A DNA stretch of 64,000 bases from Nitrospira sp. (GTDB taxonomy: Bacteria > Nitrospirota > Nitrospiria > Nitrospirales > Nitrospiraceae), in contig CP092081.1 in assembly GCA_022226935.1 (NCBI GenBank), forward strand, positions 466,540-530,539. The letters run 5' to 3'. Under the pieces are notes generated by a model that saw only the letters and a program-made list of their open reading frames with translations, was not told the DNA's origin and did no database searches. Positions within the stretch are counted from its first letter, which is position 1. The number at the start of each line of letters is the position of its first letter. The position numbers were made by a program, and so were the translations under genes. Positions 6,992 through 59,353 of the stretch are shown one piece after another.

Positions 6992-7022
6992 CGTGAAACG
7001 TCAAACGTGAAATGTGAAACGT
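6992..7022. repeat. Short tandem GTGAAACGT-type intergenic repeat
   Basis: Between the FolB fusion start (6934) and the gene ending at 7146 there is a run of related nonamers: GTGAAACGT, then CAAACGTGAAAT, then GTGAAACGTG. A second short pair, ACGAACGAC, occurs twice just upstream (near 7084 and 7101). These look like low-complexity intergenic repeats and not like protein-binding palindromes. No gene is supported in 6935-7145. Confidence 0.5.
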
Positions 7023-7145
7023 GTCCCGATGGAAACGGGTGAAGGAAGCGCCTGTGGTCCGCCATTGATCCGCCGGACGAGAGACGAACGACGTTCCACG
7101 AACGACGCGCCGATCCGGCAAGATGAGCGTGCAACATGTAGCGCA

Positions 7146-18259: not shown

Positions 18260-18437
18260 ACGCGAACCTCAAGCGGTGCGGATTCTCCGGAGGGTTCGCG
18301 CAGCGCGGAAGATCATGAGATGAAAGGAGAATTCTGCAAGTGGCAACAAACCATCGTTGCCGGCATCGTATGAGTCCGATAAGTTCGCGCGAACAAGACG
18401 CCAACTTCATTGGAAATCGAAGGTTTTTGGTAACGCC
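18260..18437 (+). promoter_or_regulatory. CRISPR leader
   Basis: 178 bases between the cas2 stop and the first repeat, open in no credible frame. It holds an 8-bp inverted repeat, CGCGAACC (18261-18268) and GGTTCGCG (18293-18300), and a third occurrence as the palindrome GTTCGCGCGAAC (18383-18394). The leader side is assigned because it adjoins cas2, and the opposite end of the array has the decayed repeat. It should contain the pre-crRNA promoter and integration signals; I could not place a promoter with confidence. Confidence 0.75.
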
Positions 18438-19461
18438 ATAGCGCCCGTCATTACCGACGGGCGAGGATTGAAACATGGCGCCTCCGGCTGATCGTCGGCA
18501 GTCCGCCGCATAGCGCCCGTCATTACCGACGGGCGAGGATTGAAACTATTCTCATGCGAGATTGATAACACCAGCGGCATATAGCGCCCGTCATTACCGA
18601 CGGGCGAGGATTGAAACATGCGACGGTACAAAGTCTTGGACTGGGGCCAAATAGCGCCCGTCATTACCGACGGGCGAGGATTGAAACAACAGAAGGCTAT
18701 GCAAGCGGAGATGCAGCAGAAATAGCGCCCGTCATTACCGACGGGCGAGGATTGAAACATATCGGAATAGCTGCCCGCGAGAACGCCGTTGACAATAGCG
18801 CCCGTCATTACCGACGGGCGAGGATTGAAACGACTAACACGCTGGCTCTGCATGGCTATAAGCCAATAGCGCCCGTCATTACCGACGGGCGAGGATTGAA
18901 ACCTGATAGCTTGGTAGCCAGGCATAAAGATTTCGTGATAGCGCCCGTCATTACCGACGGGCGAGGATTGAAACGGAAGGAATTGGATTCGAGATCTGCT
19001 CGCCGGCAATAGCGCCCGTCATTACCGACGGGCGAGGATTGAAACTCACCCTGCTATCCATTCTCCCTGCGCACGCGCAATAGCGCCCGTCATTACCGAC
19101 GGGCGAGGATTGAAACTGATCGATGGAGCGACCAATAGTCGCGTCAGCTCATAGCGCCCGTCATTACCGACGGGCGAGGATTGAAACGGTGGAGGCGCGG
19201 TGACGCGCAAACTCCGACTCATAGCGCCCGTCATTACCGACGGGCGAGGATTGAAACCGGATCAGGACGCTCGATCGCTCACGTTCCGGCAATAGCGCCC
19301 GTCATTACCGACGGGCGAGGATTGAAACACGTCGAGCGCGATCTCGGCTTTGAGTACAACCATAGCGCCCGTCATTACCGACGGGCGAGGATTGAAACAT
19401 CTTCTGCATGCCCACTTCGCCAATCTCATGGAATAGCGCCCGTCATTACCGACGGGCGAGG
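18438..19461 (+). CRISPR. Type I-C CRISPR array, 15 repeats and 14 spacers
   Basis: The repeat is 37 bases, starting ATAGCGCCCG, with hairpin arms GCCCGTC and GACGGGC around ATTACC, and ending GGATTGAAAC (the usual 8-base 5' tag ATTGAAAC). Repeat starts: 18438, 18510, 18581, 18651, 18722, 18795, 18866, 18938, 19009, 19080, 19151, 19221, 19292, 19362, 19433. Fourteen repeats are identical; the last matches only to 19461 and then diverges, losing the tag. Spacers are 33-36 bases. I found no two spacers alike and no obvious match to the rest of the window. Confidence 0.98.
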
Positions 19462-55811: not shown

Positions 55812-56876
55812 TTATTTTTTTGAGACATCTTCGACAATCTTCGTCCACACACCCTGTGCGCCAAAGAGTTTGTTGCTCACTGATTCCCATCCTCCAAGGT
55901 CTGCAATGGTGAACAGCCGGGCCGGTTGCGGCAGGGCGGCACCCGATGCAGGAGCCGCTGTGCCACGGTCCAACGGTCGGAACCCCAATTCGATAAATGC
56001 GGCCTGCGCCTCCGGGCCATGGAGAAATGCCACGAACGCCTCGGCCAGATCCTTGGCCTTGTGCCGATCGGCATAGGTGTCGACCACCGCTGCTGGGTTT
56101 TCGATCCAGACCGTTTCAGCCGGCACAATGAGTTCGTAGGGACGTCCGCTCTTCACGCGCGGCAACAATTCGTTTTCATAGGTCACGATGACATCGCCGA
56201 CGCCGCGTTCGAAGGTCGTCACCGATTCCCGGCCGCTTTTATCCATGACCTTCACGTTGCGTTGGATGCGTGTGAGCAAGTCGACTGCTTGCGTCGCCGC
56301 CGCCTCCGGAGCCACCGGTTTGCCTGCCCGTTGCTCGGCGAGTTTCAGTCCTGCGCCATAAATCGCGATCACATCCCACATGGCCCCGCCGGACGTCTTG
56401 GGATTGGGATACAAGACTTCAACGCCGGGCCGTGCCGCGTCTTCCCAGCCCTTCACGCCTTTGGGATTGCCCTTCCGCACGCCGAGTGCCACGACCGAGG
56501 CGGAAATCATGCCTCCGTGCGGAGCCTTTCGCCAGTCATGGGTGATCAGGCCAGCTTTGGTGATTTGATCGACATCACCTTCCAGCGAGAGGACGGCGAC
56601 ATCCGCATCGAATCCACCGATGATGGCGCGGGCCTGGGCACCGGAAGCGCCGTAGGAGCTGCGCACGCGGACCTCTTGTCCGGTTTTCTGTTTCCAATAC
56701 CGTTGGAACGCGGGAATGATGTGTCGTTCATAGGCTTCCTTCGGCACGCTATAGGCCGCCAGAATCAAATCACGGGCTTCGGCTGCGTGGACGGGTGCGG
56801 CCGGGAACGTGAACAGACTCCAGGATACGGTGACGGTGAGTATCAGTGTCGTTATGGTATGGCCGGTGGTACGCAT
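55812..56876 (-). CDS. sbp: Sulfate-binding periplasmic protein
   Basis: 354 aa from ATG 56876, which overlaps the Rrf2 stop as TGATG; the longer frame to 57044 would run into that gene. Signal peptide ends near PVHAAEA. Family motifs: LILAAYSVPKEAYERHIIPAF, YGASGAQARAIIGGFDADVAVLSLEGDVD, NPKTSGGAMWDVIAIYGA, and DVIVTYENELL. Binds sulfate and delivers it to CysT-CysW. Translationally coupled to the regulator gene. Confidence 0.95.
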   Translation of the reverse strand: MRTTGHTITTLILTVTVSWSLFTFPAAPVHAAEARDLILAAYSVPKEAYERHIIPAFQRYWKQKTGQEVRVRSSYGASGAQARAIIGGFDADVAVLSLEGDVDQITKAGLITHDWRKAPHGGMISASVVALGVRKGNPKGVKGWEDAARPGVEVLYPNPKTSGGAMWDVIAIYGAGLKLAEQRAGKPVAPEAAATQAVDLLTRIQRNVKVMDKSGRESVTTFERGVGDVIVTYENELLPRVKSGRPYELIVPAETVWIENPAAVVDTYADRHKAKDLAEAFVAFLHGPEAQAAFIELGFRPLDRGTAAPASGAALPQPARLFTIADLGGWESVSNKLFGAQGVWTKIVEDVSKK

Positions 56877-57316
56877 CAGGATCCTTCCGCCAGTTGAGTA
56901 TGGGCAAATCGACTTAACGTGTAATGGTCGAGAATGTTGGCAATGGCATCGCGCACTTCTCCCATAGCCTGCTGTAATGGGCAGGACGGTTTGGCGGCGT
57001 AGGGACAGTCGGCGCATTTTTGATAGGCAGTTTTGCTGACGCAACTGATCGGCGCCAGTGGTCCGTCCAGAATGCGGATGACCTGCCCGAGCGTAATCTC
57101 TTCTGGCGATTTGATCAGCGAGTACCCGCCACGAATGCCGCGCCGGCTTGCCAGCAAGCCGGCGCGTTTGAGCGCGAGCAAAATCTGTTCGAGAAACTCC
57201 ACGGGAATGTTCTGGCGCTCGGCAATCTCATGCCGCTGGAGTACGCGGCCTCCATACGTCTCGCAGAGCTCGAGCAGTGCCCGGAGCCCGTATTCACTCT
57301 TTTTGGAGAACTTCAT
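56876..57316 (-). CDS. Rrf2-family regulator with four cysteines
   Basis: 146 aa. Winged helix at 1-80 (KKSEYGLRALLELC, EIAERQNIPVEFLEQIL, GIRGGYSLIKSPEEITL). The C-terminal region holds C92, C101, C104 and C112, close to the three Fe-S cysteines of IscR (spacing C-x5-C-x5-C) but with one extra and different gaps. It heads the sulfate operon, so a sulfur-responsive repressor like CymR, or an Fe-S sensor like IscR, is likely; CymR lacks these cysteines, which favours a cluster-binding protein. Operator not identified. Confidence 0.9.
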   Translation of the reverse strand: MKFSKKSEYGLRALLELCETYGGRVLQRHEIAERQNIPVEFLEQILLALKRAGLLASRRGIRGGYSLIKSPEEITLGQVIRILDGPLAPISCVSKTAYQKCADCPYAAKPSCPLQQAMGEVRDAIANILDHYTLSRFAHTQLAEGS

Positions 57317-57375
57317 GGTCGAGGCAGTTGTCTAGTGAGTTGCTCAAGATTTAGCAGAATAAACCTTGCCGATGT

Positions 57376-57397
57376 CCTGATTCAAGCGCCTTATGGC
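57376..57397. repeat. 22-bp direct repeat, left copy
   Basis: CCTGATTCAAGCGCCTT, then A, then TGGC. An otherwise identical copy with G at the variable position is at 58249-58270. The two copies enclose 851 bases of decayed sequence. Confidence 0.7.
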
Positions 57398-57456
57398 GGA
57401 GTCTCTACGCTTTCTCAAGAGTCTAGATGGCTGCGAATGAATAACAGAAATTCGCC

Positions 57457-57730
57457 TTGGCGGAAGACGACCTAGAGCGAGCCTGGAATACATTGGCGAA
57501 TCTTCCGGGACTCTCGGTCGAAGCTCGGTTCACACTAATCAATCAGTTGAACCAAAATCTTCCCGAGGTGGAGCGCGCGGAGTTGGCGTGGAGTCAGCGT
57601 GGAGTCAGCGTGGAGTCAGGTCATTGATAATCACGCGGACGTGTCACCGAGGATGGAACGGCTTGCTCTATTAGATTCACTGCCTGAATTAAACCGTGTC
57701 GCGAAGTGTGAAGAACGAAATCCTGGTTGA
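57457..57730 (+). pseudogene. Small gene broken by an 11-bp tandem triplication
   Basis: From TTG 57457 one frame reads AEDDLERAWNTLANLPGLS, then VEARFTLINQLNQNLPEVE and AELAWSQ, then stops soon after 57587. CGTGGAGTCAG occurs three times in tandem (57587-57597, 57598-57608, 57609-57619). With a single copy the frame continues as VIDNHADVSPRMERLALL then DSLPELNRVAKCEERNPG to TGA 57728-57730. The unit is not a multiple of three, so duplication explains the frameshift. The helical, Leu-rich protein is of unknown family. Confidence 0.55.
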
Positions 57731-58248
57731 GTTGATCAGGATGAAATTAAGATGCCCACGCTTATCCGATTCGCCGGCCCAGTATCGCTCTAATGCATGT
57801 TCCAGCAATAGATCCATGGCCAGTGCTCTGCTACAGGCCCATGCTGGTCCGGTCTCAAGACAAACGGTTGACCGCTCATGACCGCGCAGTCTCCTACAAC
57901 ATGGAGATCATGTGCCTCATTACCGAACGTCGTGGTTCAGGCGCTCATTCCTCAGAAAATCGCCCCGTGGCCTTTACTCGCGAATGGTTCTTCAACATCA
58001 AGGTCGCCAACTGGGCTGAAGGAGTACGGAAAGAAGACGACTACAGAATAGCCACTCCGATGATCAAGGGCGACAGCGATTGCGTCTCGTTTTTCCGTTT
58101 TTTGCGGAGGACGACTTTTACGTCGTACAGGGTCGCGCATGCCTTTATCTGTCCCGTATTGGCGAGCTGCTGGTGCGCGTTTAGCAGTATGTCGATCAAC
58201 GACTGCGAAGACGGCTGTTCTCTTTCTTCCCCCGCACCATTGGGCCCT

Positions 58249-58270
58249 CCTGATTCAAGCGCCTTGTGGC
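58249..58270. repeat. 22-bp direct repeat, right copy
   Basis: Same as the left copy at 57376-57397 except G for A at position 18. Possible insertion-site duplication, far longer than a transposase target duplication, so recombination or an att-like origin is as likely. Confidence 0.7.
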
Positions 58271-58432
58271 AATGCCACTGAATCGAACTGCGCGGCCCTT
58301 GCAGCAACATCGACAGTGCAACCCATTGAAAACGGAGGTTCAGTTTCTTGACACCCCGTAACCGTTCTTGCTAGCTTCAGCGTGATTTTTCTCCGTCACC
58401 ACGAGCAGCCTGCGGCTAGATCTGGACATCCG

Positions 58433-59353
58433 GTGAATTTCCAAGACCTCATTTTGACTCTGCATCGCTTCTGGGCCGATCGCGGGTGCGTCGTTCATCA
58501 ACCCTACGATTTGGAAATGGGCGCGGGCACGTTCCATCCCGCCACGTTTCTTCGTTCCCTGGGACCGGAACCCTGGGCCGCTGCCTATCCGCAAGCCTGC
58601 CGCCGTCCGACCGATGGCCGCTACGGCGAAAACCCCAACCGTATGCAGCATTACTACCAGTATCAGGTGGTCTTGAAACCCGCTCCGGACAATATTCAGG
58701 GTCTCTATCTGGAGAGCCTCAAGCAACTGGGCATCGATCCCAAGAAGCACGATATCCGGTTTGTGCAGGACGACTGGGAATCGCCGACGCTGGGTGCCTG
58801 GGGATTGGGATGGGAAGTGCGTCTCGACGGGATGGAGATTACCCAGTTTACGTATTTTCAAGAAATCGGCGGCATTCCGCTCAACCCGATCACCGGCGAA
58901 ATCACGTATGGGACTGAGCGCATCGCCATGTATCTGCAGCAGGTCGATAATGTGTATGACCTCCAGTGGACCGATGGCGTGACCTACGGCGACGTGCACC
59001 ACCGCAGCGAAGTGGAGTTTTCACGCTACAACTTCGAGGAGGGCGAGGTGCCCATGTTGATGGCTACCTTCCAAGCCTTCGAAGGGGAATGCCAGCGTCT
59101 GCTGGACAAGAAGTTGACGCTGCCGGCCTACGATTACTGCATCAAGACCTCGCACATGTTTAATCTGCTGGATGCGCGCGGGGCGATCAGCGTCACCGAG
59201 CGGACGTCCTACATCGCCAGGGTGCGGGCGTTGGCGCGGCGCTGCGCGGAATCGTATGTGGCTGACCGGGAGGCCATGGGCCATCCGTTGATCAAGCAAT
59301 CGGCTCGGACAGGTAAGGGAGCCACCAACCACTCACCGGTCACCACCAAGTAG
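58433..59353 (+). CDS. glyQ: Glycyl-tRNA synthetase alpha subunit
   Basis: 306 aa from GTG 58433 ([19 protein letters not shown]); the frame runs to 58382 but that segment is not family-like. Motifs: [54 protein letters not shown] and [21 protein letters not shown]. Class II catalytic subunit; pairs with GlyS as (alpha-beta)2. About ten residues longer at the C-terminus than the usual 290-300. Confidence 0.95.

Follow-up and report, generated by a model that had tools for sequence, protein, structure and literature searches.

A tandem expansion of an 11-bp unit within a TolC-family pseudogene remnant between rrf2 and glyQ in a Nitrospira genome

Introduction

Short tandem repeats with exact head-to-tail units and a unit length that is not a multiple of three are a feature of phase-variable loci that change by slipped-strand mispairing, and the CGTGGAGTCAG array described here resembles them in both respects. 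The array differs from such loci in that it lies in a dead fragment and has three copies only, against one at most in relatives, and in that there is no functional gene for it to switch. The locus is also similar to the GeneTack-class frameshifted pseudogenes (PMC3711429), in that an intact gene has a decaying homologue whose indel is not conserved among relatives; it departs from them in that the efflux fragment carrying the indel is without both gene ends in the relatives too. The third comparison is with the TolC-family outer membrane efflux proteins (PF02321 OEP, TIGR01844), to which the remnant aligns mid-protein without gaps, although it keeps the middle only and its frame is broken.

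The array was found in a stretch of 64,000 nucleotides of Nitrospira sp., referred to below as the window. The host genome is a single contig of 4,229,538 bases.

Results and Discussion

Exactness and rarity of the array

Three exact copies of the 11-bp unit had been reported in the original prediction, and they were confirmed as CGTGGAGTCAG units standing head to tail at 57587-57597, 57598-57608, and 57609-57619. Tandem Repeats Finder gave a longer span, 57575-57619, with 4.1 copies of GCGTGGAGTCA and 91% matches, because a degenerate unit, GCGCGGAGTTG, precedes the exact copies. A counterpart of this degenerate unit was also found in the relatives.

57575..57585, plus strand: degenerate 11-bp unit GCGCGGAGTTG, 8 of 11 positions identical to GCGTGGAGTCA as counted by eye
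57587..57619, plus strand: triple CGTGGAGTCAG array, 22 bp extra compared with the relatives

Elsewhere in the window, the same program listed an imperfect 7-bp tandem repeat (CGTGAAA, 4.6 copies, 84% matches) at 6992-7023 and, at 18437-19400, an array of a 37-bp repeat, CATAGCGCCCGTCATTACCGACGGGCGAGGATTGAAA, to which we gave the label CRISPR-like.

The CGTGGAGTCAG array was the sole array with at least three exact copies, for periods of 5-60, in the 464,000 bases scanned, a sample made up of the 64-kb window and 20 evenly spaced 20-kb stretches of the same genome (approximately 11% of the genome). The array is more than chance. A double CGTGGAGTCAG unit with up to two mismatches was found in one of the 29 genomes of the genus, namely the array's own host, and the same search left the other 28 without any multi-copy form. 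The extra 22 bp are specific to the window genome among the genomes searched.

Such restriction to a single genome is also what a sequencing or assembly error would produce, in which the real copy number would be one and the extra 22 bp an artefact; a variant particular to the culture could also underlie it. We regard such an error as improbable; in our judgement, a clean gain of two exact units beside a degenerate unit that is common to the relatives looks biological.

Copy number and reading frame

Because 11 is not a multiple of three, the CGTGGAGTCAG copy number sets the reading frame. When zero to five copies were translated, the frame was open with one copy (83 codons) and with four (94 codons), and closed with zero, two, three, and five. 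The single-copy version runs from the TTG at 57457 to the TGA at 57728-57730, in agreement with the original expectation that collapse to one copy would restore a frame of about 80 codons. The three copies present in the window give the following frame:

57457..57627, plus strand: 56-codon frame with a TTG start

No Shine-Dalgarno-like sequence was read by eye upstream of this TTG, and a promoter scan of 57250-58450 returned one promoter-like match, with 0.7 expected by chance.

Identity of the interrupted frame

The one-copy protein was compared with 148 related genomes and matched in 14, its own genome counted. Eight of the match rows fall in open frames of 452-563 codons, which encode TolC-family outer membrane efflux proteins. 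In these eight long same-genus frames, approximately 60 residues of the one-copy reading align mid-protein at 41-46% identity and with no gaps. The 455-residue protein of an intact relative (locus L057 of genome G026) matched Pfam OEP with an E of 5e-37 and TIGR01844 with an E of 9.1e-35, the latter yet below the cut-off of the model. The one-copy protein itself had no Pfam or NCBIfam match above cut-off, OEP included in the case of Pfam, and it is not a full-length TolC-family protein with OEP domains such as those of the intact relative. These comparisons show that the supposed small gene amounts to some 60-70 central codons of a TolC-type outer membrane efflux protein of 455 residues, with approximately the first 217 and the last 168 of these missing.

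57433..57690, plus strand: central remnant of a TolC-family outer membrane efflux protein, approximately residues 218-287 of 455, based on tblastn, the one-copy alignments, and the Pfam OEP match of the intact relative; the right limit is approximate
57442..57444, plus strand: in-frame TAA inside the remnant, upstream of the TTG of the supposed small gene

Of this efflux subfamily, the window genome contained the fragment alone, plus two homologues at 25% identity. An addiction-module gene was also considered as the identity of the 83-codon frame and was rejected, as there was no such match in Pfam or NCBIfam and the genome search led to a TolC-type protein.

Decay of the efflux remnant

Remnants of the efflux gene were also present at the same locus, beside rrf2, in four relatives (G009, G017, G021, and G023). 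In-frame stops were identified in three of the four (G009, G021, and G023). In the match of the G017 remnant, no stop was seen and the open frame had 174 codons; the decay of this remnant therefore rests on its missing ends and indels. Because both gene ends are missing in the relatives too, the efflux fragment was dead before the indel arose.

The codon-position differences point in the same direction. Over 26 ungapped codons, the five remnants showed 58, 50, and 55 pairwise differences at codon positions 1, 2, and 3, respectively, in a comparison that is small (26 codons, 10 non-independent pairs); over 30 codons, five intact homologues showed 77, 55, and 165. In the four pairs that involve the window genome, the differences were 34, 17, and 29, position 2 being the lowest and the third position showing no excess. 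The flat pattern of the remnants is what a non-coding relic would be expected to show. The efflux fragment thus combines homology to an intact gene, truncation, stops, and lost coding constraint, by which a pseudogene is judged. The original proposal that the triplication disrupts a small gene did not hold: the repeat lies in an already dead internal fragment of a TolC-family gene, with both ends missing, an in-frame stop upstream, and no third-position excess.

One copy as the older state

The one-copy form, which the original prediction had advised looking for in relatives, was present in all four of the same-locus remnants. In addition, the one-copy translation crosses the join without gaps at 13 of the 14 homologous loci tested, the 13 being the four same-locus remnants, the eight long frames, and L014, which is weak and contains stops; the remaining locus, L015, gave no alignment to the one-copy translation. 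The three-copy translation produced a shorter alignment at all 13 loci, with a gap in two of them. With four copies, the join was crossed at six loci, each time with an 11-residue gap, and the remaining alignments ended before the join. Therefore, the one-copy state of the relatives and the gapless one-copy alignments mark a single copy as ancestral, and the earlier description of the repeat as a slippage or recombination event stands.

Probable neutral expansion and competing explanations

The locus is very probably the product of a neutral tandem expansion of the 11-bp unit, from one to three copies, inside a decaying TolC-family fragment carried by the rrf2-glyQ insertion. The first extra copy would have arisen by replication mispairing between GCGCGGAGTTG and the adjacent unit, or by unequal exchange, and a second would have been easy once exact copies existed. 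Replication slippage or unequal exchange is the most likely mechanism of the expansion, and the imperfect 11-bp repeat GCGCGGAGTTG probably seeded it. As the efflux fragment was already dead, the gain of 22 bp would have broken nothing and would have been selectively neutral, so that neither switching nor selection need be assumed. It is a little surprising, and counts against pure neutrality, that exact triplications were otherwise absent from the 464 kb scanned.

We consider it very unlikely that the array is phase variable, that is, that an 11-bp unit changing in number at a high rate turns a small protein on at one or four copies and off at two, three, or five. In favor of a switch, a change in the number of 11-bp units does shift the frame, which is open at one and at four copies, and no other exact array of this type was present in the 464 kb scanned. 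However, no functional coding gene contains or follows the tract: the frame is an internal piece of an efflux protein of 455 residues, preceded by an in-frame stop and with flat codon-position differences, and the remnants have no third-position excess. Nor does the copy number vary among the relatives, whose four remnants are one-copy and contain in-frame stops in three cases; it is the window genome that differs, by two copies. The number of promoter-like matches close to chance and the lack of a Shine-Dalgarno-like sequence before the TTG also argue against a switch. The suggestion of reversible, phase-variation-like behavior thus found no support, since the 28 further genomes of the genus were without a multi-copy form and the frame that opens is mere efflux scrap. 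Most likely, the CGTGGAGTCAG array switches nothing on or off.

It is least credible that the one-copy frame represents a genuine short gene, such as a domesticated fragment, recently inactivated by the triplication: removal of two units does open an 83-codon frame, but none of the 13 alignments was to such a gene (eight were to the 452-563-codon frames, four to remnants, and one was weak with stops), the match went no further than residue 63 of 83 in all but one of the 13 (L012, where it reached 73), and there was no third-position excess.

The insertion between rrf2 and glyQ

The array lies in a segment that is inserted between two working neighbor genes and bounded by direct repeats.

56876..57316, minus strand: Rrf2-family regulator gene, left neighbor, open frame of 146 codons
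57375..57397, plus strand: 23-bp direct repeat, left copy, bounding the insertion
57398..58247, no strand assigned: inserted segment in the rrf2-glyQ gap, which 21 of the 26 matching same-genus genomes lack
58248..58270, plus strand: 23-bp direct repeat, right copy, 22 of 23 positions identical
58433..59353, plus strand: glyQ, glycyl-tRNA synthetase alpha subunit, right neighbor, open, with the start chosen from the 306-codon frames of relatives

Of the 29 genomes of the genus, 26 gave a match at this site and three gave none; the insertion was found in five of the 26. In the other 21, rrf2 and glyQ are divergent neighbors with a short gap. The distance between their start codons was 236-255 bp in 18 of these empty sites, and the remaining three (G004, G006, and G010) were classed as empty because their BLAST pieces lie next to each other. 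G017 carries the two sides of the insertion on different contigs. Empty sites had one GATTCAAGCG-like site and filled sites had two, with diverged right copies in the four other carriers. As read by eye, the window genome retains a TTGACA upstream of glyQ together with the bases that follow the motif, all of which are conserved in empty sites; this site was not listed by the promoter scan.

The five carriers did not form one clade in the glyQ tree or in the rrf2 tree. Their distribution requires three changes on the glyQ tree and four on the rrf2 tree, and the well-supported branches force three in both. Label shuffles needed as few changes in 17 of 500 cases for glyQ and 117 of 500 for rrf2, and the clustering of the carriers on the flanking gene trees is weak. 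The two trees served to test whether the insertion came by simple descent, a reading that was rejected.

The right part of the insert in the window (57793-58281) contains a 162-codon frame and a second frame, and has the look of a broken gene. As a possible remnant of another gene, approximately 57793-58250 gave no Pfam match and none in plasmids or the 28 congeneric genomes; among 245 genomes of the phylum, it gave four weak matches besides its own, the best with an E of 9.5e-4. The scan for RNA families over 57000-58600 gave none at gathering score.

Cargo of the insertion in relatives

In G009, G021, G023, and G017, frames for an addiction-module antitoxin and a ParE-like toxin were located to the right of the efflux scrap. 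The antitoxins of G009 and G017 matched Pfam Unstab_antitox (E 7e-16), and the toxins of G023, G021, and G017 matched ParE_toxin below the cut-off (E 0.0026, 0.00089, and 0.0011, respectively); these two antitoxins and three toxins were the frames of the pairs covered by Pfam. A 181-codon frame was also present in G021 and G023, with a shortened relative in G017. Additionally, the insertion of G017 contained a transposase split over two contig ends, with matches to HTH_Tnp_1 (E 4e-11), rve_3 (E 1.5e-13), and HTH_21 (E 8.6e-16), for which the name IS3 is our label on the Pfam matches.

L047 1396-1937: toxin-antitoxin-like pair
L048 2291-2829: toxin-antitoxin-like pair
L049 876-1393: toxin-antitoxin-like pair
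L051 2850-3391: toxin-antitoxin-like pair
L050 1943-2260: G017 IS3-type transposase frame, inside the insertion
L051 3451-4245: G017 IS3-type transposase frame, inside the insertion

No transposase was seen among the insert frames listed for G009, G021, and G023, few of which were Pfam-tested, and the IS3-type transposase of G017 is probably a later arrival. The insert of the window was without the toxin-antitoxin pair, the 181-codon frame, or a transposase.

Tentatively, the rrf2-glyQ gap could be a small insertion hotspot of Nitrospira, at which an efflux scrap and a toxin-antitoxin pair entered at the 23-bp-repeat site and from which recombination passes the insert from lineage to lineage. 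Such exchange would account for the absence of a single carrier clade from both flanking gene trees. We hold this hotspot to be possible rather than likely.

Conclusions

Overall, the CGTGGAGTCAG array is a real yet ordinary tandem expansion in a pseudogene remnant. It also serves as a caution, as a repeat that sets the frame resembles phase variation, yet the relatives place this frame in a dead gene fragment. For the study of genome change in Nitrospira, the patchy insertion bounded by direct repeats, with the toxin-antitoxin cargo that it carries in relatives, is of minor importance.
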